NCBI GenBank assembly: GCA_950295325.1
Contig: OX485806.1
Coordinates: 11,534,001 to 11,598,000, forward strand
DNA from: Polytrichum commune
Taxonomy: Eukaryota > Streptophyta > Polytrichopsida > Polytrichales > Polytrichaceae
Length of the DNA: 64,000 bases
Direction of reading: 5' to 3'
The position numbers were made by a program, and so were the translations under genes. The notes beneath the pieces are model-generated. The model made no database searches. It was not told where the DNA came from and saw nothing but the letters and a program-made list of their open reading frames with translations. This document shows, one piece after another, positions 4,195 to 39,756 of the stretch. Within the stretch, counting starts at the first letter, position 1; the number at the start of each line of letters is the position of its first letter.

Positions 4195-4958
4195 CAATGT
4201 TTTCATTTGGTTCAAGCTGTGAAATTGTTGGGGATTATGTTAAGAAATAGGTGTTGGCCCACCATTTTTCACACTATTACAACCGTAGATGCCAACATGA
4301 CAATGCTCGAAGTGGCTGGTGCGAACAACCCCTCAACCCTGATCAAACCAATGTTTCCGTTTGGTTCTAGCTGTGAAACTACTAGGGATTACGTTGAGAA
4401 ATAGGTGTTGGCCCACCATTTCCCACACTATCACAGCCGGAGACCCCGACGGAGGGTGCTAGAAGAGCGGGTGTGATCAGCCCCATCCGGCCCTAATCAA
4501 ACCAACATTTTCATTCAATTCCAGCTTTGAAATTGTTGGGGAGTGTGTTGAGAAATAGGTGTTGGCCCACCATTTCCCACACTATCACAACCCAAGACGC
4601 CGATGGAGGGTGCTAGAAGTGGCGGGTGTGATCAACCCCTTCCGGCCCCGATCAAACCAACGTTTCCATTCAGTCCCAACTATGAAATTGTTGGGGAGTG
4701 TGTTGAGAAATAGGTGTTGGCCCACCATTTTGCACACTGTTACAACCAAAGATGTCGACGGAGGGTGCTAGAAGTGGCGGGTGTGATCAGCCCCTTCCGG
4801 CCCCGATCAAACCAACGTTTCCATTCAATTCCAGCTTTGAAATTGTTGGGGAGTGTGTTGAGAAATAGGTGTTGGCCCAGCATTTCGCACACTGTGACAA
4901 CCAAAGATGCCGATGGAGGGTGCTAGAAGTGGCGGGTGTGATGAGCCCCTCAACCGGT
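4195..4958 (+). repeat. 155-bp tandem satellite, about 4.9 copies
   Basis: The marker 'gttggccca' recurs at 4253, 4407, 4561, 4716 and 4871, giving spacings of 154, 154, 155 and 155 bp. Units share 'gaaattgttggggagtgtgt', 'gaaataggtgttggcc' and 'gtgctagaagtggcgggtg'. The period is not a multiple of three, so the open frames inside cannot be a repeated protein. The array is a short minisatellite with units diverged by several percent. Confidence 0.9.
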
Positions 4959-29099: not shown

Positions 29100-30399
29100 T
29101 AAGGTAGACAGGTCCTAAATGGTCACATACCCCCCCCCCCTTTGCCCACTTCTCCTAGAGTAGACATACCGATTTCCGTAGACTTAAGCAATTTCGCATA
29201 AGTGTGGTGCATGTGTGATATTGAGATGGTTTTTCACATCTTTGGAAATTGACATCACAACATAGATTTGCAAAGTAAAGGTAGATGTACAAATGGGGCC
29301 CTAAGGTTTAGAGGTTTTTTTTTGGACAATAAATGTGTTAGTTTCATCCAATTCATATATTAATAGTCCTCAATGGCTCCCTTGTTCATTCTTGTTAGGG
29401 TTTGCATTTGGGTTATTGGACAAACTAGAGGCTTTTGGAGTGCTCATGGGTTCCCCTTGAGTTTTGCTTTCCCGATTGTGACTAAGTTATTATGCTCTTG
29501 TCTTTGTTTTTTATGCAATCATTGACCATTGATGCAATCATAAGAAAGAGTCTAATCTTCACTTTGACGACGATATTCATATGGGATATCCCAATCACTA
29601 ATTGGGTTTTTGATATGTGGAGGTTTGTCGATTACAAATTGATAATCATGAATTTCTAAATTTGAAATTGAACAAACTACACTGAATATGATATTTAGTG
29701 TCACCAATTCTAATTGCCTTGCTCAATACTAATTGTAAACTGCGGTGTTGTGTCACCAACACTAAATGTTAACCCAACATTAGTTGTCATTCTTTGAATT
29801 TTTTTGGGGGGGGATTATAGATTGATAGTGTTGCAAATACTACAGACCTTGGACGACTGCCAAAATAATTATAGTTAATTGTTTTTTTTCAATACATTTT
29901 AGAGAACAACTATACTTAATTAGGAAATTTTAATATTGGATTCAAGAACAACTGTAGTTAACTAATTTTTTTTCAAACAACTGATCGTTCCACACCAAAG
30001 AATATTGCTTGATTGAAGATGTTGAATGAATGTGTGTGTGTGTGTGTTGTTGTGAAGTTTCAAGTAGCTAGGATGGTAGATGGCAGGAACAAGTTTGATC
30101 GATATGTGTAAATGCAAAAGAACAACTAGATTGCAGGTGAAGTAGTTGATTACGAGCAGGGGTTGATAGAAAAAGAATAACTCCGGTGTCCGGAGGAGGC
30201 CGGAGTGAATAAAGTGTATGTTCGTAGAACATCCTAGGCCATGCCTTACGGCAGTGGCGTTAGATGTAAAACTACTTCGCCCTTTGCAAGACGTAGACAC
30301 TGTATTTAGTAACCAATAGTAAATTTCGGTAATCGGTTATTATTTATGGGCCTTGTTTGGGGTAGTTAGTGGGGGAGGGATCTGTATTAGGTTAGGGGT

Positions 30400-31100
30400 T
30401 TTATTTAATTATGAGAGGTCTTGGAGGTCATTTATAGTTTGTCTATTTTCTAGCCTTCGTTTGTGGACTAATATGGAGTGCTCATATTGTGTGGCAATTA
30501 TGTTAATTTGTTTAAACGTGTTTTTGATTTTCGTGGTGGGGAGTGTGAACGTTGTCTCCAGTTTTTTCATTGATGGGATATGTGTTGTGCCTCTTGCTCC
30601 CGCAGCTAGTACCATGAGTGGGGCTACGTTCCAACCTTTTGTTATGATGTTGTTTATGAGTGGTTGGTATTTTTTGATTTTTCTATCTAGTGTTTTAGTG
30701 GCGAATCTGTCATTGTAGTATGTAAATTCGATGAACTGTATGGTAATATCCGGTGTAGGGGTTTATGGGGGGGGGGGTGGTTATGTACATGGCCTATTAT
30801 GCATAATATGTCCGGTTTGAGCCTGGCATTGCAATGACATCTTTGGGTGTTACATGTACATGGGAGTAGCCATGGGGGGACTGTATTTTCTTGGGGTAAA
30901 TCATTATCTGTTCGTGTATTCATTAATGTATAGTGTCTTGATATTTGGGTTGATAAAATTAGTTTGTGTATTTCCCATACTGCTTTGTTGTGCCTTTTTG
31001 TTATTAGTGCATGGATGTGTTGTTGTTTGCATTTAAGTAGTACATGTAGCCATGTGTCCGCATCTGTTGAGTTACATACAAAGCATGTTCTCGATAGGAA
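30400..31100 (-). pseudogene. CCHC zinc finger plus restriction-like endonuclease (RLE)
   Basis: C-x2-C-x9-H-x4-C (CFVC...WLHVLLKC) is followed by KRHNKAVWEI, as in R2-type C termini. KPDILCI and, past a poly-C tract (30,768-30,778) where the frame slips, QFIEFTYYNDR and DRKIKKYQPL match the PD...(D/E)...K pattern of RLE. The frame runs on to a stop near 30,409. Confidence 0.7.
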
Positions 31101-31439
31101 GGCTACTCTGCCAAAGAAGAGTTGTTTTCGGGCGTGGCCCATATATTGTCCAGTTCTAAATTTTATTAAGCATGTTTTTTGTTTATCTATGATGGCGGGA
31201 TTCGTCCAAAATTCATTTGATAGTATTTTATGATCTATGTCATCATTTTCTAGTCATTTGTGTAATTGGTGTGTTTGATTTGCTATAATTGTTAAGTTTT
31301 GTTCATTGTCATGCTTGAGAATGTGTTTACTAAGGTGCCTTATGGGGCCCTTGTCGGGTGTTTCTTCCATGGAATGCCACCAATCTTTTTGTAGGTAGTA
31401 TGGTGTAGGGTTTGCATGTTTGTATGACATTGCGGCATC

Positions 31440-31880
31440 CCTATGGTCTAGTTCACGCCCTTGTTTGGCTAGTGCATCTGCTTGGTCATTTCCTCCTATG
31501 TTTGTGTGGGCTTTTATTTTATGAAGTGTGGTGGTTTGTATATGGGATATTAACATTTTAGTCATACTTTCTAGGATTAATTTGTCCGGGTGATTGTTAT
31601 GACTAGTGGGGTGTTTGATTTGAGTTTTTAGGAGATATAGGATGTTTAGACAGTCTGTGAATATGTGGGTTGGCTCATTTCGATAGGTTGTGGTGAGGAG
31701 TTGTAGGGTGTGGTGTATGGCCATCATTTATGCTCGTAGGATATTTTGTAGGCCCGGTAGCCTTTTTGCGATTTTTAGGTTTTTGAAAGGGTTGTAAATA
31801 CCATATCCGGCTTTTTCACGTCTCCATTGTCCATTGTTTGTTTGGGTGGTTTGAATGACCCGTCAGTGTAGTAACAAAAT
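31440..31880 (-). pseudogene. RNase H domain of the LINE
   Basis: YYTDGSFKPP carries the first catalytic Asp. The expected A-E-x-x-A-I motif reads A-stop-MMAI (TAA where Glu is expected). IFTDCLNILYLL has the third acidic residue, and KAHTNIGGNDQADALAKQG gives the His and last Asp. The complete residue order identifies a type I RNase H. Confidence 0.8.
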
Positions 31881-34094
31881 TGGGGTGGGAATTTAAGCGG
31901 AAGGCATTGTTATGGGTTGATATTCCATGGGTTGGTTGGTATTTGGATGTTCAGCGGTGGGGGTGGGTATGTGAGTTTGGTCCATTTTGTATTGCGGTTC
32001 ACTAAGGTGTCTAGTGGCGTTTGTGGTGCAATTTGGCAGACACATGTCGGGGATTCGTAGTGTGTTGGCAGTATTTTTCATTTGCAGGGTATATGTCTCT
32101 GTACCTATGGGTGTATTCTTATGGTGTATGCATAATATTTGTATAGCACGGTTTTCTGTTCTAGGTTCTTTTCTTAGTTCTGGAGGAATTGTTGGTTCTT
32201 CGTAGATGATGGTATCAGCGAATCTGGGAAGGGTCCATTGTGTGGGTTAGGATTTTAATACCAATTTTCGTCTGGCATTACTAGTATTGGGATAGAGTTT
32301 GAATCATTCTTGGCTGCAAGGCGGGCCCAAGAAGGGCTTGTTGAGTTTCGGTGTTTGTGTGTGGGTGTGCATAACCATTGCCCTGCCATTTATGATGGAA
32401 TGTTTTTCCAACTGATCCAAATACTACATCCCTAGGGAATGGGGAGTGGAATTGTCTGAGTGTGGTGGGGCATGTTACTGGTGATGAAAAATATGAGTGT
32501 GGTATTGGATTGTGTTTATGAAGTTTTCAAGGATGGCATTTGGGAGTGTGTATTGGAAGAGTTTAAGGGGGTTATTTTTGGGGGTTTTGTATTTATATCT
32601 TTGGTATAGCCATGCCACTTCTGTTTCGAATGGTTGGGTGGGGAGCTCTAGGTTGTGTGGTTTATTTAGTGCTAGGTGGTATTGATCCCATAACCATTTT
32701 AGTCTTGTTTCAGGAATGGTAATCAAATGTCGACCAATGTTATCGTAGATGTGTGCAGTGTCATATTGGGTTTGGATAGTATATTGTGTACAAGCTATAT
32801 CATCCTGTAGGTTACACTCATCAATGGATATGTGGCATAGGGGTATGGTTTTGTGGAGGGGGGATATATCTTATATCTCTTATTTGTTCTTGGTTGAAGT
32901 TTATGTTTAGTATGTTAGTATAATGTTGGTGTTGCTTTCTAGTGTAGTATTGTGTTAGTAGTAAAATATTATGGTTTATGACGTTCTAGTTGTTCCACGG
33001 AAACAATTCTTTTTGGGATAGCCATTTGTTGTAAGTTGTTTCATTTGGGAGTGTCCATTGGCATAGGTAGGATGTATATTTTTTCGTGATTTTGTAGTTG
33101 TCTGTGTAGGTACTTGGGCGGTCATTTCTTATGTTGTGTATAGGGAAGTGTGATGGGTCTTTGAGTATGTATGGGGGTGGTTTTGGGTGTTCTAATGATA
33201 GTGGGGGTGACAGTTGAGTGTGGCGTTCTTGTGATCTTGTGTGTGTGTCATTATTTAGTATTTTATATTCGTATTTCAGGGTGTTTGGTATCGTATGCGT
33301 TGGGCATGGATGTGTGCATTGGGCAAGGCATGTTGGTTCACAAAATAATTTTCTGGCATATTCTAGTGCCATTTTCTCTGTTTTTGTGGGTTTATTGTAA
33401 TGATTTTTAAATTCATCGTTATTCATTAGGTGTGTTCCGTTGGGGCATGTTATATGTTTTAGTTCAAATATGTTGTGTAATATTAGTTTGTGGAGGTATT
33501 TTAGTGATATTTATGGGGTGAGTGTTGGGATGTTTCTTGCTTGTAGCATCCATTGTGTTTCTAATGGTGTAGGGGTGAGGGGAAGATTTCCGAGTGTGCT
33601 TTTAAGGTGAATTCCGCTTGTTTTTTCAGTTTGAAGAGGGATCTTGTGATTGGTGATCTCGTACAATCATGGAGTGAGATACGTGTTAAATTTTGGGTTC
33701 CTCCGTGTTTGGCAAGTATGTGTTGTATTAATCCTTTGTATATTCTCCCTAGCCTACCTTTATCATTTAGGGCATTTATGAGTTGTTCTCCTATACATGT
33801 TATGTATGCGTTTTTAATGAAAAACTTATGTCCCAAATATATCGTGTGGTAGTTGTGTGACGACATTTGACATGCATTTTGGTAGGCCGCATATGAATTT
33901 ATGCAATGCAATTATTTTATTGTCTAGTTTCTTAATGACCGGGAGAGAGTATGTGACGGCATAGAAGTTGTAGGCAATGCCAACTCGTATGTGTCAACCA
34001 TTTTTATTTTTTGTTTCATGGTAGTTGGGCATGTTATTAGGAGTTTACTTTGTTTGGTTAGTTTGGCCGTGGTGATGTGAGTTTGCGTTTTCCA

Positions 34095-34545
34095 TTATAA
34101 TGAGGAAACTAGGTTAATTCCAAGGTATACATATGGTTCGTGTTGGCTAAGTGTGGGTATTGGTTGGTGTCTAAAGTTTATATTTGCTTCTTGTAAGTGT
34201 GCTTTGAAGGCTTGTGGGTTTAGTTTCGACTTATTGGGGCATCCGGTGATCGCGCATTTGGGGATGCCTAGATCCATTCTTGCCCATTCATAAAACTTGT
34301 CTATTTTGTTAAGTTGGTTTTGGAGGGATGTTATTTTGTTGGCCAAGGGGCTAAGTCATCGGCGTATGCTGCGGAATTTATCTTAGTGTTGGAGGTTTTA
34401 AAGGTATATCCATTGTTCCCCTTTTGTAGCCATCGTAGGAGTGGTTCTAGAAATATAATAAATAAGTATGGGCTCAATGTGTCGCCTTGTATGGTTCCTT
34501 TTTGTATGGAGATTGGTTGTGTTTTACCAAAGTGTTCTCCAATGT
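34095..34545 (-). pseudogene. Reverse transcriptase palm/thumb fragment
   Basis: YIGEHFGKTQPISIQ leads to QGDTLSPYLF, then AYADDLA with the catalytic Asp pair. After a frame change come GIPKCAITGCPNKSKL and EPYVYLGINLV (RT motifs D and E). The fingers and the first catalytic Asp motif are deleted. Continuing frames down to 33,560 (IYKGLIQHILAKHGG) fit the thumb region. Confidence 0.8.
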
Positions 34546-34549
34546 ATGT

Positions 34550-34840
34550 GGGTATTTTAGACAAGTTACCGGGAAATGTATGTTTGTTATGAATGAGAGT
34601 GAGTAGTCCTCCTTTATAGCCCTTATGGATCATTCTTTAGCGCATAGTACGTGTGATGTTGTGCGTATTGTTGAAGAAAAGTTTGTACGGGGGGAAGATA
34701 TTTTGTATGTATTTAGTGGATTTAGTGGCGGTAAGTTTGGTTTCTTGTATTGTTATAGTTGTTGGGGAATTTTGGGGTGTGTTGTTAGTTCGTGAAGACA
34801 TGACATTGCTGTGTTAAACAACGCGGCATTCCAAGTTATG
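34550..34840 (-). pseudogene. APE-type endonuclease N-terminal fragment
   Basis: ITWNAALFN resembles the first APE motif (WN-A/I-N/R). After a one-base shift come TITIQETKL (the catalytic-Glu QET motif) and, past an in-frame TAA in MR-stop-RM, GGLLTLIHNKH. The rest of APE (the SDH motif region) is absent. The reading passes within about 15 residues into reverse-transcriptase sequence. Confidence 0.7.
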
Positions 34841-35496
34841 ATATATGTTTCTTGACTTGTAAGTGTTGTTGGCCTCGGTGTCGGTATTTTGTTATTTAAT
34901 ATCGGGGTATTGGGGTATTGGGGTGTGTATATTCTATGATAGGTTGTGTGCATCTTAATGTTTCTGTAAGTAATTGTTGGGGTAGATATGAGAATGTGTT
35001 GTACGGGCATGTCTTGGATATTGGATGGTTCGGGGTATCGATGTATATGGCCATATAGTTTATGGTGGATTGTATTTGGAGGGGATATTTTGTCTTGGTA
35101 TGTATTCTGAAATTTTGTATATGGGTGTGGGGTTTCAACGTGTCTCTCCAGTGGGTTAGGTAGTTTGGTCATTTTTTCTAGTATTTGTGAGGTCCAGTCA
35201 GGGATTGGTTGTTGTTGTAGATGTATGTCACAATTTTTGATGGAGGGGCTTATTGTTACGATGAGGGCATATATCGGTCTAGGGGCCGGGTGGTTAGCAT
35301 GTTGTTGTATGTAGTTATGTAAGTGTGAAACTGAGGATGTTGTTTGTGTGTGTAGGGGGTGCATATTTTGGAATAATGGTTTAAAGTTTGTGGCTAGGTG
35401 TTGGCATTCCGGTTGGAGTTTTATTGTGCTAGGTATAAAATAGGTTGTTTGTCTTCTTTTATGGGCGGTTGGGTGGGTTTGAAGTAAATTTGGCAT

Positions 35497-35541
35497 TGGG
35501 CCTAGATTGGTTTGAATGTCGCCACATTGTGATAGCAAGAG
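35497..35541 (-). other. 2A-like peptide motif in LINE ORF2
   Basis: Reads LLLSQCGDIQTNLGP. The active 2A consensus ends in D-x-E-x-N-P-G-P, and LINE versions often have CGDI-x-x-NPGP. Here the critical Pro of NPG is Leu (CTA), a single C-to-T change from CCA, so ribosome skipping is probably lost. The spacing after a hydrophobic LLL stretch is as expected. Confidence 0.6.
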
Positions 35542-36101
35542 GTAGTTAGGGACGCATATTATTATTTTTGGTCTTTGTTGGGGATTTCTAGGGTGTGGTT
35601 TTATATTGGCTTGTATTTGTGATATATTATATGTTGAGGGATTTGGTATTGGTATTGGTTTTGAGTTTGATATTGGGTATGGTATTGTTATTGGTAATGA
35701 TTTTGGGAATGGTATTGGTATTGAGTTTGGTATATGTTTTGGTATTGATATTTAATGTCGGTATATTTTGTGTATGTTTGTAATTTATGTGTATTGTGTG
35801 TATATTTCTTAATTATGTTTTTGTTTGTTTGTGTTTTGGTTTTTGTATTGATATTTTGTTGGGTGTTGTTGATAGTTTCTATTAGCGTGGAGGTATCTAG
35901 AAATACATTTTTATTTTGTTTATGTATTTTTGAGGTGGGTGTAGGTGTAGTATGGATAGGTATTGTGGTATTGGATGAATTTAGTTTAACGCCATTAGAT
36001 TGTCTTTGTCGCTGGATGAGTCTTCTTTATCAAGCATGTATGTTGACTCGAGGGTGGCCATGGTTTTGCTAAGGGTCTGCTTTAGCGTGTCCATTTTTTT
36101 T

Positions 36102-37595
36102 TTAGAGAGCTTTGGCCGCTTTATCCGTTGCGTATGTAGCAAAGTTTTTCGCTTGCGTTGTTAGTCGTGTTTCCATTGTGTTCATTTCGTTGCGGACTAT
36201 CGCAGTACCTTTTGCGACGGCCTCCTCTACTATTTTATTTATATCTATTTTCCCGAGTGCATTGGAAGGGGCATTTTCCATTGCCTCTACTGTGTCGGCT
36301 AGTGTTGTACTAACATCGTTGAAACCTATCCTTGTAAGTTCCTCAGCTGAGGGTTTGAATATTTCATCTAGACTCTTAGGGTGGGGAGAGAACTCTACAT
36401 ATTTGTTGCATATTTTATGACTTTTCTTTACAAAAATTTTGTACACCGCGACACTCAAATATTGAATATTGCACACTCTCGTGAGTTTGCCTTAGGCGTC
36501 GTTTTTTAAGTAGATATTTAAAATGTTTTTGTCACCCATGCATGCTCTAATTTCTGCCTCAAGAATCTCTTTGGATTTTAATCTATTTAGGTTCTTTTCA
36601 ATGAGAATAAGTGTATTCTTTTTTTCCAAATCATCACCGGTAGGCTTTTCCATTGAGACATCTATGCATTCATGGCCAAATGTAATTTTATTTTTACGAA
36701 TGTTTGTGACTTGCTCCGGACTAGTGACAACTATCCATGCATAGTTATGACCCTCTATTTTTTTTACATGCGTAATTTCAAAGTTGTGTCCCCTTTTGAA
36801 TCATTTTAATATTACTTCTTCATATACCGTAAACCAAGGTTCCTTCTTTATAGTGTCATTAGTGATTTTGATGCACAACATTTCGCTAGAGGTAATAGTG
36901 TCATATGACTTGCAAACTTTTCCTTTGTGCATTTTGTTATCCGATAGTCGGATGATAAATGGGCGGAGGCTTTGAAGTAGTTTGACTCTATCCTCTTGCA
37001 CATTTTTAAGATGTATTTTTGCATGTCCCTACCATTGCTTGCCTCCATGTGTACACATTATAGCTATGGGGTCACTTATTTCATCGACAAGCCAGATTTT
37101 CATATCATCTAGTCTTTTGGTGATTTTGTTCAATGTTTCATCTTTTGGTATGATCATTTCTTCTAGATTAAAAAACAAAGCAATTTGATAGTCCATGACA
37201 AATCCATCACTCATATCTATGTCCACGGGGATTTGGGTATGATGATAATTTTGTTCCCCAATATCATTCATACTTGGCCACATTTCTTATGGGACATATG
37301 GGTAAGATGACACACAATCTTGACATTCTAAAGCTTCTTTGTCATTCATTCTCATTCTCATAAGTTCACTTACGCTTTTGTGGACTACTGCATCAAGTCC
37401 TTTGCTTGCATTCAAAGCATTCATAGCTTTGAATCCAAGCCATAGGTGTGAGTTTTTCTTTGGTGTGTTATTTTTATTTTTTATTTTTTCTACTTTATCT
37501 AGGCATGCATTGCTAGATTTGCGTTTTTTAGTTTGAGAGGTTTCCAAGTCCTTAACCCCATCAAAGGTTTTGTCCAAGCTTTGTGAATATGCCAT
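36102..37595 (-). pseudogene. LINE ORF1 with four in-frame stops
   Basis: One continuous frame of 498 codons from ATG 37,595 (MAYSQSLDKTF) to a TAA at 36,102, interrupted only by TAA 37,287-37,289, TAG 37,029-37,031, TGA 36,801-36,803 and TAA 36,492-36,494. Readable segments include SLRPFIIRLSDNKMHKGKV and EAMENAPSNALGKIDINKI. No known domain was recognised, though position and basic character fit an RNA-binding ORF1 protein. An A-rich spacer follows, and an ORF2-type ATG lies at 36,094, eight bases below the last stop. Confidence 0.65.
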
Positions 37596-38354
37596 TTTGC
37601 AAAGAAGAAATATTTGATAGTTATTTTGTGTGTTTGTTGGAGTTTTTGTTGTCCTAGACAAATCACCATTCCACTTATGAGCAAGTGGGGCTTGGAGGGG
37701 AGATGTTGCTAGGGAGAGGGTGAGTCTAATTTTTTCGTTTGTAAAACAATATTACGGATGCCAATCATGTGATATGTGTGAGTTTACACGGTGAGATTTT
37801 TTCCAATAAGATAGGGCTATGAGCCAAAACACAACAATAAGGATTGCATAAGCAATTTTCATTTCTATCTAATCTAACTAATGCGTTTTACTAATTTATT
37901 ATTTTAGGAATTTGGAAATGCTATGTGTCTACTTGTTTATTTGTGTGTATGTAATCTATGTGGCTATTTGCAAGAGAGATAGAGTTAATGTGTTACCTCA
38001 GTATCTTGTATGTTGGGCGGCAGTACAACACTAGTGGGTAAGGTGCAACAGTCCCACAGTTTGCAGCACCAGCGGCTCTGTGTCTGCACCTTCCACCGTT
38101 ACTTCTGCTCAGGCCTTTAGTGCTGATGGATGAGCAGCAACTCTGCAGGCTCACCAGCATCTTCTGTCTTTAGGTTGGTGTAGCAGTCCCGCTTCTAACA
38201 GCAGTAGGGGTCTCGACAACGTCCCCTCCTCCTTTTTACTTTTCAGCCTGGTTTGTTGATGCCGGATTTCGCAATAGTTCTCCAACGTATTCTGCTGAAT
38301 TTCAGAACAGTTTCGGGTGTCTGCTTCGGTATTTTTTTCCAGCTGTGACCCTTT

Positions 38355-38985
38355 GCAGTTCCCTTTCCGCAGTATCTAGCAGCAGGGTATTCACAACAGA
38401 TCACAGTAGTATTTTCCCCGCAAATTTATTCTCCTTCGATCATCTCTTTTGGTTCACTCCTATGGTCGCTACCACCACTTGTCTCTTGCGTTCGCCTTCT
38501 CCAGGTGCCTCCCTTAGTGCGCTCGATCGCCCTCCTCTATTACTCTTTGATCACTTATATTCGCCTCCTTCGGTGTGACATTCAGCAGTTTCCCTTTCGG
38601 TAGTATCCTAGCAGCAATACAAAATTTACAGTAGATCACAACAATGTTTTCTCAACAAATCTATTCTCCTTCGATCAACTCTTTTTGGTCCGCTCCTACG
38701 GTCGCTACCGCCACTTATCTCTTTCAGTCGCTTTCTCCAGGTGCCTCCTTTAGTGCGTTTTCCTCAATCGCCCTCTTCAGCCACCTCTTCAATCCCTTTT
38801 ATTCGCCTCCTTCGGTGATGTAAATCTCGCCTTCTTCGGATCTCCTTCGATGCCCCCTTCGGGCCTCCTTCGGTGCTGCTGACTGCAGTGCCTTCTTTGG
38901 TGTTTATAGATCTCGCTTCCTTCTGTGTTGTAGATCTCACCTCCTTCTGGCCTCCTTCGATGCCTCCTTCGGTGTTGTGATCCGC
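38355..38985 (-). repeat. LINE 5' region: two 230-bp tandem units and TTCGGTG microrepeats
   Basis: Unit 1 (38,355-38,584) and unit 2 (38,585-38,815) share 'agtatctagcagcag', 'attctccttcgatcaactct', 'tctccaggtgcctcc' and 'attcgcctccttcggtg'. From 38,805 to 38,985 the motif 'cctccttcggtg' recurs with variations. The block is GC-richer than its surroundings and lies upstream of ORF1, where LINE promoters often consist of tandem units. Confidence 0.65.
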
Positions 38986-39373
38986 ACTTGCGCTTGTAGT
39001 TGTGCAATGTGCTAAGGTGAGGTACATGGGTGAGTATGGGGGTTTTTATTGTGTGGGCGTTCGTCGCTGGGTGCTACAGGTGACCCTTCGGGTCTTGAGG
39101 AGGTGGGTGGCTAGGAGAGGGAGGGTTGGGGAGCAACACCTTGCGCTACTTCGACCTTTCTCCCCCTCTCCCTACCTCCAGTAGCCTCCTCTTCCCTGCA
39201 GCGCTTCCGCACACGAACAGTCAGGCTAGTGTCTTCCCATGCTTACGCCGGAGCTTGTCGATGGCCGCCTCAAATATCATTAGCACAAACTTCTAGAGAT
39301 TTTTGGGGTTGATAGACTAATACTATGGATTGATCAAGTGTTGGTGCAAGAGGAGGATCACTTAGTCGAGTTA

Positions 39374-39489
39374 GGGTTAGTTTTCATGTAGACCATCCAC
39401 TAGATTTCAGTGAAAATGTACAGTCAACCTCATGGAATATACATTTCCATAGAATCTAGCGGGCGAGTAGTCTACATGGAAACTGACCC
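39374..39489. mobile_element. 116-bp foldback MITE
   Basis: Starts GGGTTAGTTTTCATGTAGAC and ends with its near inverse (GTCTACATGGAAACTGACCC), flanked by TTA at 39,371-39,373 and 39,490-39,492. The two halves pair over most of their length (CACTAGATTTCA against GCTAGATTCTAT). It is inserted near the 5' end of the LINE. Confidence 0.75.
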
Positions 39490-39756
39490 TTAATGTGCAA
39501 TGGGATTAAGTTATGTAGTAATCAGCTAGGTTGCGCTCAACTTTAGTTAACTAGATATATAACTATATTATTTGATAGAACAAATTTAGAACAACTATAA
39601 TTAACTACATTTTTTAGCAAGTCAAATCGCAAACAACTATAGTTACAAAAGGCAACTACTTAACTAATAGTTGAATTAGTTGGTTAGTTGTCCACGGTCT
39701 AAAATATTGTCACTTACTAAGTGATTTTTCATCCAAATATCAATCATCCATCACAA

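Follow-up and report, generated by a model that had tools for sequence, protein, structure and literature searches.

The 64,000-nucleotide stretch of DNA analysed here (the window) carries on its minus strand a dead, decayed, and internally deleted copy of a long interspersed nuclear element (LINE). We put at about 0.92 the probability that it belongs to a family of large non-LTR (non-long-terminal-repeat) retrotransposons of Dualen/RandI type, and that this family has multiplied in a land plant, probably a moss. A Dualen/RandI element in a plant genome had been proposed from the letters of the window alone (the sequence-only reading), in which both an apurinic/apyrimidinic endonuclease (APE) and a restriction-like endonuclease (RLE) were seen, together with a reverse transcriptase (RT) and a ribonuclease H (RNase H). 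All the motifs claimed are present on the minus strand, in the order given and spread over three frames: ITWNA, QETKL, and GGLLTLI for the APE; QGDTLS, YADDL, and GIPKC for the RT; TDGS and GNDQAD for the RNase H; and a CCHC zinc finger, RHN, KPD, IEFTY, and K-x2-KY for the RLE end. Pfam recognizes the RT and the RNase H in the window itself (RVT_1, 1.7e-8, at 34,331–34,636; RNase_H, 2.4e-7, at 31,254–31,727); the piece with ITWNA (34,753–35,751) and the two RLE pieces have no Pfam match at E ≤ 1.

The evidence that both endonucleases belong to one element comes from the window's own genome (408 Mb in 64 contigs), which was searched with the RLE piece (best 150 scored of about 3,831 rough candidates) and with the RT piece (best 150 scored of about 1,261); the candidate counts are rough, and the scored matches are lower bounds. 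Eleven long loci (L001–L011) were taken as relatives, and L037, from a deeper lineage, was added later. The order APE–RT–RNase H–RLE was found in all 12, which speaks for a single element and not for a chance join. With this, and with the APE profile matches of relatives given below, the interpretation has passed both tests by which the sequence-only reading said it could fail. The sequence-only reading had proposed that full-length copies be collected, and in five of the 12 both nucleases lie in one stop-free frame, of 2,169 amino acids in L001, 2,924 in L002 (2,724 in the piece analysed), 2,919 in L003 (2,712), 2,663 in L004, and 2,372 in L037; the other seven have stops or frameshifts. Since loci with long frames were preferred, five in 12 is not a genome-wide rate. 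L037 represents a deeper sister lineage, with an RT about 60% identical to that of L002 and the same domain order.

A single block of 13,320 bp, 99.67% identical and with unrelated flanks, is shared by L002 (contig C4) and L004 (contig C1), which argues that movement was recent. GACTCCCACT flanks L004 on either side, and 6 additional bases stand at its 5′ junction. Within the block, a first open reading frame (ORF1) of 1,400 codons, in which the first Met is codon 234, precedes a second (ORF2) of 2,924 codons. The first ATG of the ORF2 frame (4,197) begins five bases ahead of the ORF1 stop (4,202–4,204); such an overlap occurs in elements with stop-restart translation. Pfam finds nothing above its cut-off in the ORF1 frames of L002 and L037. 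The order of parts in ORF2 is one or more 2A-like motifs, APE, RT, a chromodomain-like segment, a PCIF1-like domain, RNase H, CCHC finger, and RLE. The 2A-like motifs (GD[IV]..NPGP) lie upstream of the APE, one to three per copy, in nine of the 12 relatives; the same pattern finds none in L009, L010, and L011. The usual 2A signature includes a Glu. L001, L003, L005, L006, L007, and L008 each have one motif with this residue; L002, L004, and L037 lack it. Two or three such motifs precede the APE in L001, L005, L006, L007, and L037, possibly as several ribosome-skipping sites.

The APE segment, which matched no profile in the window, passes the APE profiles through its relatives: PF14529 gives 29.9 bits for L001 and 32.3 for L037 (cut-off 27.4), and PF03372 gives 25.6 bits for L003 (cut-off 24.5). 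In a Pfam scan of L002, no APE family came up at E ≤ 0.1; the APE of L002 aligns at 63% with that of L001 and at 69% with that of L003. The motifs WNA, QETK, GDFNRD, LIDGFY, and N-SDH are readable in L001, L002, and L037, and a pattern count over the 12 loci shows several without one or more of them. For the RT of L002, Pfam gives 1.2e-29. The RNase_H matches range from 3.2e-12 (L002) to 8.3e-15, with 1.3e-14 in L037, and the domain reads D-E-D-H-D, with a His, in L002 and L037. At the C-terminal end, the RLE motifs C-x2-C-x9-H-x4-C, RHN, PD, E, and K-x2-KY are invariant in the 12 aligned copies. Ahead of the PD motif, these copies also have an invariant C-x-C-x4-C-x-C (columns 191–200 of alignment A2; L002 7726–7755), perhaps a second zinc site. 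Alignments A1 and A2 comprise 14 and 12 loci, mainly copies that are stop-free in the part concerned.

Selection on these parts was estimated as the ratio of nonsynonymous to synonymous substitution rates (dN/dS) by the method of Nei and Gojobori, with codons holding stops skipped. At dS ≥ 0.4, the ratio is 0.106–0.117 for the APE (three pairs: L005 against L001, L006, and L007), 0.045–0.073 for the RT, 0.034–0.097 for the RNase H, 0.080–0.134 for the RLE, and 0.093–0.241 for the RT–RNase H segment. These low values indicate that both nucleases were maintained while the family spread, the APE and the RLE each being under purifying selection.

The 3′ ends were compared in the window copy and ten relatives (L037 not among them). 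A terminal segment of 134–136 nt is common to all of these, and a clear (CTT)n or (CTAT)n follows its hairpin in nine of the ten relatives; the repeat is irregular in L011 and decayed in the window. RNAalifold predicts 37 pairs in this segment, 11 of which show two-sided changes, and none of 500 shuffles reaches the observed percentage paired, the number of pairs with two-sided change, or the covariation score. By these comparative measures, the 3′ segment is a structured RNA. In the 3′ flanks of 11 copies, no common target was seen by eye, and no statistic was made.

The combination of an APE, a C-terminal RLE, an RNase H, and 3′ repeats other than poly(A) is the one described for Dualen/RandI, as the sequence-only reading had held. 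These elements are known from Chlamydomonas and its relatives, and PMC4640811 and PMC8226300 point to Kojima and Fujiwara in 2005 as the founding paper. According to one publication, Dualen encodes both an APE and an RLE and has been used as an argument that APE-type LINEs arose through replacement of the RLE (PMC4640811). For RandI, another reports non-poly(A) 3′ repeats in eight of eight algal families (PMC3747384). Likened to Dualen by such published descriptions, the present family is a likely member of Dualen/RandI, though not a proven one. A second explanation is an independent gain, in which an R2-like element with an RLE acquired an APE and an RNase H in land plants and did not descend from the algal Dualen. 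The likeness to Dualen indeed comes from descriptions and not from a comparison of sequences, and the RT finds its best PDB matches in the R2 proteins of a turtle and a bird (103–110 bits), silkworm R2 (69–73) being level with L1 (69–71). However, the pairing of APE and RLE, the RNase H, and 3′ repeats other than poly(A) correspond to what PMC4640811 and PMC3747384 give for Dualen/RandI, and we regard the independent gain as improbable.

Several other observations weigh against membership in Dualen/RandI or against parts of the picture given above. In a small RT tree built with FastTree, the references are three R2s and six RTs of L1 type, and the 12 family RTs (support 1.000) form a group apart from them; the tree thus separates the family but places it beside no Dualen. 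By sequence, the A2 profile of the RLE gave one unrelated PDB match, at 0.73, and a fold comparison was used for this reason: with Foldseek against 350,542 PDB chains, the six best rows for the RLE model are R2 proteins, at E 1.5e-4 to 4.3e-3, at TM-scores (by query) of only 0.35–0.40 and root-mean-square deviations (rmsd) of 5.3–12.7. The AlphaFold models are poor, with a mean predicted local distance difference test score (pLDDT) of 57.7 for the RLE, where blocks range from 48 to 88 over residues 141–320, and of 45.7 for RT–RNase H. Some close pairs have dN/dS of 0.4–2.7 at dS < 0.07 (2.7 at dS 0.006), which carries little weight. Further pair types, one of five measures of the 3′ RNA, are not above chance (455 of 500 shuffles). 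The flanks of L002, which were inspected, hold no clear target-site repeat. Finally, two 3′ flanks, that of L001 and that of L002, open with AGTAA, which also occurs in the 5′ flank of L004; this may be coincidence or a slight preference in the choice of target.

The host, a land plant and most likely a moss, lies outside the green algae in which Dualen/RandI has been reported, a statement of range and not of definition. A 2015 survey lists Dualen in green algae only (PMC4438587), and a comparative study of Chlamydomonas found Dualen in every species covered (PMC8226300). The literature searched, mostly without subscription papers and supplements and with part of the long lists, holds no record of a land-plant Dualen. 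The genome has 28 NAC-domain exon matches and four LEAFY SAM matches. The LEAFY DNA-binding piece is nearest to PDB 4bhk (113.6 bits) rather than 2vy1, PROTEIN LEAFY (87.7 bits), and has Asp where 2vy1 has His; we take 4bhk to be from the moss Physcomitrella and the Asp to be of moss type. LEAFY and NAC also occur in some streptophyte algae, so that a slight doubt attaches to the land-plant reading. A search of the genome for YABBY gave no match, but the controls gave no match either. Two scans of viral contigs gave no relative.

Two further parts, neither of which the sequence-only reading mentions, lie between the RT and the RNase H. The first to be considered matches the Pfam family of PCIF1, PF12237, at 1.3e-10 in L002, 2.7e-12 in L003, and 1.6e-9 in L001. 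In the genome, all of the best 150 of 698 candidates are above the cut-off, and the match is found in 14 of 14 members of one lineage and 17 of 17 over two lineages (E ≤ 0.1, best 1.1e-13); L037 at full length reaches 27.4 bits, below the cut-off of 31.1. Against the PDB, a profile of the domain has the two PCIF1 sequences as its best matches (0.0049 and 0.23; 0.075 and 0.66 with a longer profile), and human PCIF1 comes first in a fold list for the RT–RNase H model drawn from Foldseek's top 1000 chains, with a Z of 6.2 and an rmsd of 11.6 on this poor model. NPPF, with its catalytic Asn, is the catalytic motif of PCIF1. Its place reads A-[HFY]-P-x in the family, the Asn being absent in 17 of 17, and a domain that binds but does not methylate is therefore expected. 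The possibility that it is instead an active RNA or DNA adenine methyltransferase would be in keeping with the purifying selection on the RT–RNase H segment and with the retention of the domain in both lineages, but His, Phe, or Tyr in place of the Asn in every member makes this very improbable. The PCIF1-like part is thus predicted to be a binding module and not a methyltransferase.

Upstream of the PCIF1-like domain is a segment with the pattern I..I/L...YLCQW......W...L. In two alignments made for these parts, A6 omits L040 and L043, and A7 omits L042, L043, and L047, in which the piece carries stops or a frameshift; several near-duplicates from the first lineage are also left out of both. 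The two-lineage profile A6 has 16 PDB matches at E ≤ 10, of which 13 are chromodomains (best 0.0046), and Pfam Chromo matches eight of 18 members of both lineages (best 0.0011). When its columns were shuffled, one of 200 shuffles reached the score of the two-lineage profile against four typed chromodomains. Moreover, in a second fold comparison among Foldseek's top 1000 chains, 19 of the 50 rows listed are chromodomains or chromoshadow domains, at Z 4.4–5.8 (for example, an rmsd of 2.6 over 62 residues). A number of results, however, count against a true chromodomain. A Z below 8 may mean merely a common arrangement, and the Chromo scores of L002 (15.4 bits) and L037 (12.8) are below the cut-off of 25.1. 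With one lineage alone, Pfam Chromo is weak (0.018, two of 14 members), eight of 200 shuffles reach the score of the profile, and the three PDB matches of that profile at E ≤ 10 include no chromodomain. Foldseek on the RT–RNase H model found no chromodomain among the 50 rows listed of 745, and no row of any kind at E ≤ 0.001. From these profiles and models, the segment is called chromodomain-like only. The literature searched, within the limits given above, likewise holds no record of a LINE with a chromodomain or a PCIF1 domain.

Taken together, these parts suggest how the element may have worked. Stop-restart translation would yield the ORF2 protein, ribosome skipping would divide it at the 2A-like motif, and it would attach to the folded 3′ end of the RNA that encodes it. 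A nick made in the target by one endonuclease would prime reverse transcription; the RNase H would then clear away the RNA template, and cleavage of the second strand may fall to the other endonuclease. The chromodomain-like part would guide the complex to chromatin that bears certain marks. Lacking the catalytic Asn, the PCIF1-like part would bind rather than methylate, and a possible ligand is the element RNA at its capped 5′ end. A new architecture might then be at hand, that of a LINE whose two endonucleases are combined with a chromodomain that reads chromatin and a pseudo-methyltransferase that binds the cap, and in which one protein picks the chromatin, keeps the capped 5′ end of its own RNA near the 3′ end, and cuts both strands with two unrelated nucleases; we put this forward tentatively, as somewhat less than an even bet. 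If true, the chromodomain in a LINE would be a chromatin-targeting module for non-LTR elements, of a sort known from chromoviruses, and the domain derived from PCIF1 would mean that a retroelement had captured a cap enzyme. With stop-free copies in a land plant and selection on both nucleases, the role of two endonucleases in one LINE becomes testable in a moss.

The window copy is 78–84% identical in DNA to L008, L009, L010, and L011, and the alignments with all four relatives show a single break at 34,548–34,551, where the two flanking alignments overlap by 4 bp and 1,919–1,920 bp are skipped. Both the body of the APE and the first part of the RT were lost with this internal deletion of about 1.92 kb. 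The sequence-only reading had placed the element at 29,965–39,537. This is too far at the 3′ end, where the conserved segment stops at 30,179 and a decayed tail continues to about 30,165; upstream, an ORF1 is present at 36,102–37,751, and only short DNA matches reach 39,207, so that the 5′ end is not fixed. The notion that two separate LINEs, one of APE type (a plant L1, for example) and one of RLE type (for example, a relative of R2), were joined or nested by chance is suggested by the deletion junction, which parts the APE start from the RT in the window, and by the L1-type RTs (so labelled by eye) of the same genome, but is ruled out by the domain order in 12 of 12 long loci of two RT lineages, by the single frame that five of them have in common, and by a mean RT identity of 0.21 to the L1 type against 0.71 within the family. 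As for those L1-type RTs, L028–L032 and L035 were recognized by eye, two with YADD and four with FADD. By eye, the 3′ flank of L008 (L008:8685–9899) also resembles an ORF of L1 type in its RT portion, and L008 seems to be nested in another LINE.

All the features of the window copy are on the minus strand. The ORF1 remnant consists of five open pieces at 36,102–37,751, recognized by tblastn against the regions upstream of the relatives; the best match is upstream of L010 (1.3e-37, 54%), with others in L003 and weaker ones in L037 and L002/L004. A decayed 2A-like motif, GDIQTNLGP, is at 35,497–35,523. The frameshifted APE remnant (34,552–34,839) was delimited by tblastn with residues 584–722 of the L002 ORF2, relatives matching PF03372 or PF14529 above the cut-off, and has ITWNA at 34,825–34,839, QETKL at 34,733–34,747, and GGLLTLI at 34,592–34,612. 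On the other side of the junction, the C-terminal RT motifs QGDTLS, YADDL, and GIPKC lie at 34,095–34,547, with one frameshift. The chromodomain-like segment, placed by its motifs and the family profile, has approximate ends at 32,890 and 33,170 and holds PIHNI (33,130–33,144), SYLCQW (33,055–33,072), and YNKW (33,022–33,033). It is followed by the PCIF1-like domain at approximately 32,050–32,700, with SYFSSP at 32,479–32,496 and GYAHPH at 32,359–32,376. The RNase H is frameshifted (31,455–31,867; TDGS at 31,856–31,867, GNDQAD at 31,476–31,493). The zinc finger, C-x2-C-x9-H-x4-C, is at 31,029–31,085, and KRHN follows at 30,987–30,998. The RLE, placed by tblastn, extends over 30,433–31,028 with one frameshift near 30,765 and contains LKPDI (30,807–30,821), IEFTY (30,718–30,732), and KIKKY (30,667–30,681). 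The conserved 3′-terminal RNA segment, delimited by comparison with the relatives, has 135 nt here (30,179–30,313), and the decayed tail at 30,165–30,178, whose end is approximate, was once probably (CTT)n. Imperfect direct repeats about 235–300 bp apart were also seen at 38,389–38,995.

Among known systems, the present family is most like Dualen/RandI in having an APE and an RLE in one element, an RNase H, and short non-poly(A) 3′ repeats; it differs in its land-plant host and in the chromodomain-like and PCIF1-like parts between the RT and the RNase H, the algal Dualen being known to us by description only. With the R2 clade, it has in common an RLE with CCHC, RHN, PD, E, and K-x2-KY, and the best PDB matches of both RT and RLE are to R2 proteins. 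To our knowledge, however, R2 has neither an APE nor an RNase H, whereas in the present family an APE is present and the RLE is thus not the sole endonuclease; moreover, R2 inserts at one 28S site, and no common target was visible by eye in the 11 3′ flanks of the family. Plant L1 elements likewise have an APE, an RT, and an RNase H in plants, but we know of no RLE in them, and the RTs of the present family form a separate group (mean identity 0.21). The RNase H of plant L1 is described as archaeal-like, with an Arg, in one study (PMC4640811), whereas the motif of the present family has a His. The PCIF1-like part resembles the cap adenosine methyltransferase PCIF1 in its PF12237 homology and in the motifs SP..C and FGS..G, but it has lost NPPF and sits inside a retroelement. 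As regards the chromodomain, one source gives the LINE Celine no CRM-type chromodomain, and a review assigns the chromodomain to LTR elements. The nearest parallel is that of the chromoviruses (Ty3/Gypsy), which also have a chromodomain within a retroelement polyprotein; these are LTR elements with the chromodomain at the integrase end, as a further paper describes (PMC11288735), whereas the present element is a LINE in which the chromodomain-like segment lies between the RT and the RNase H.

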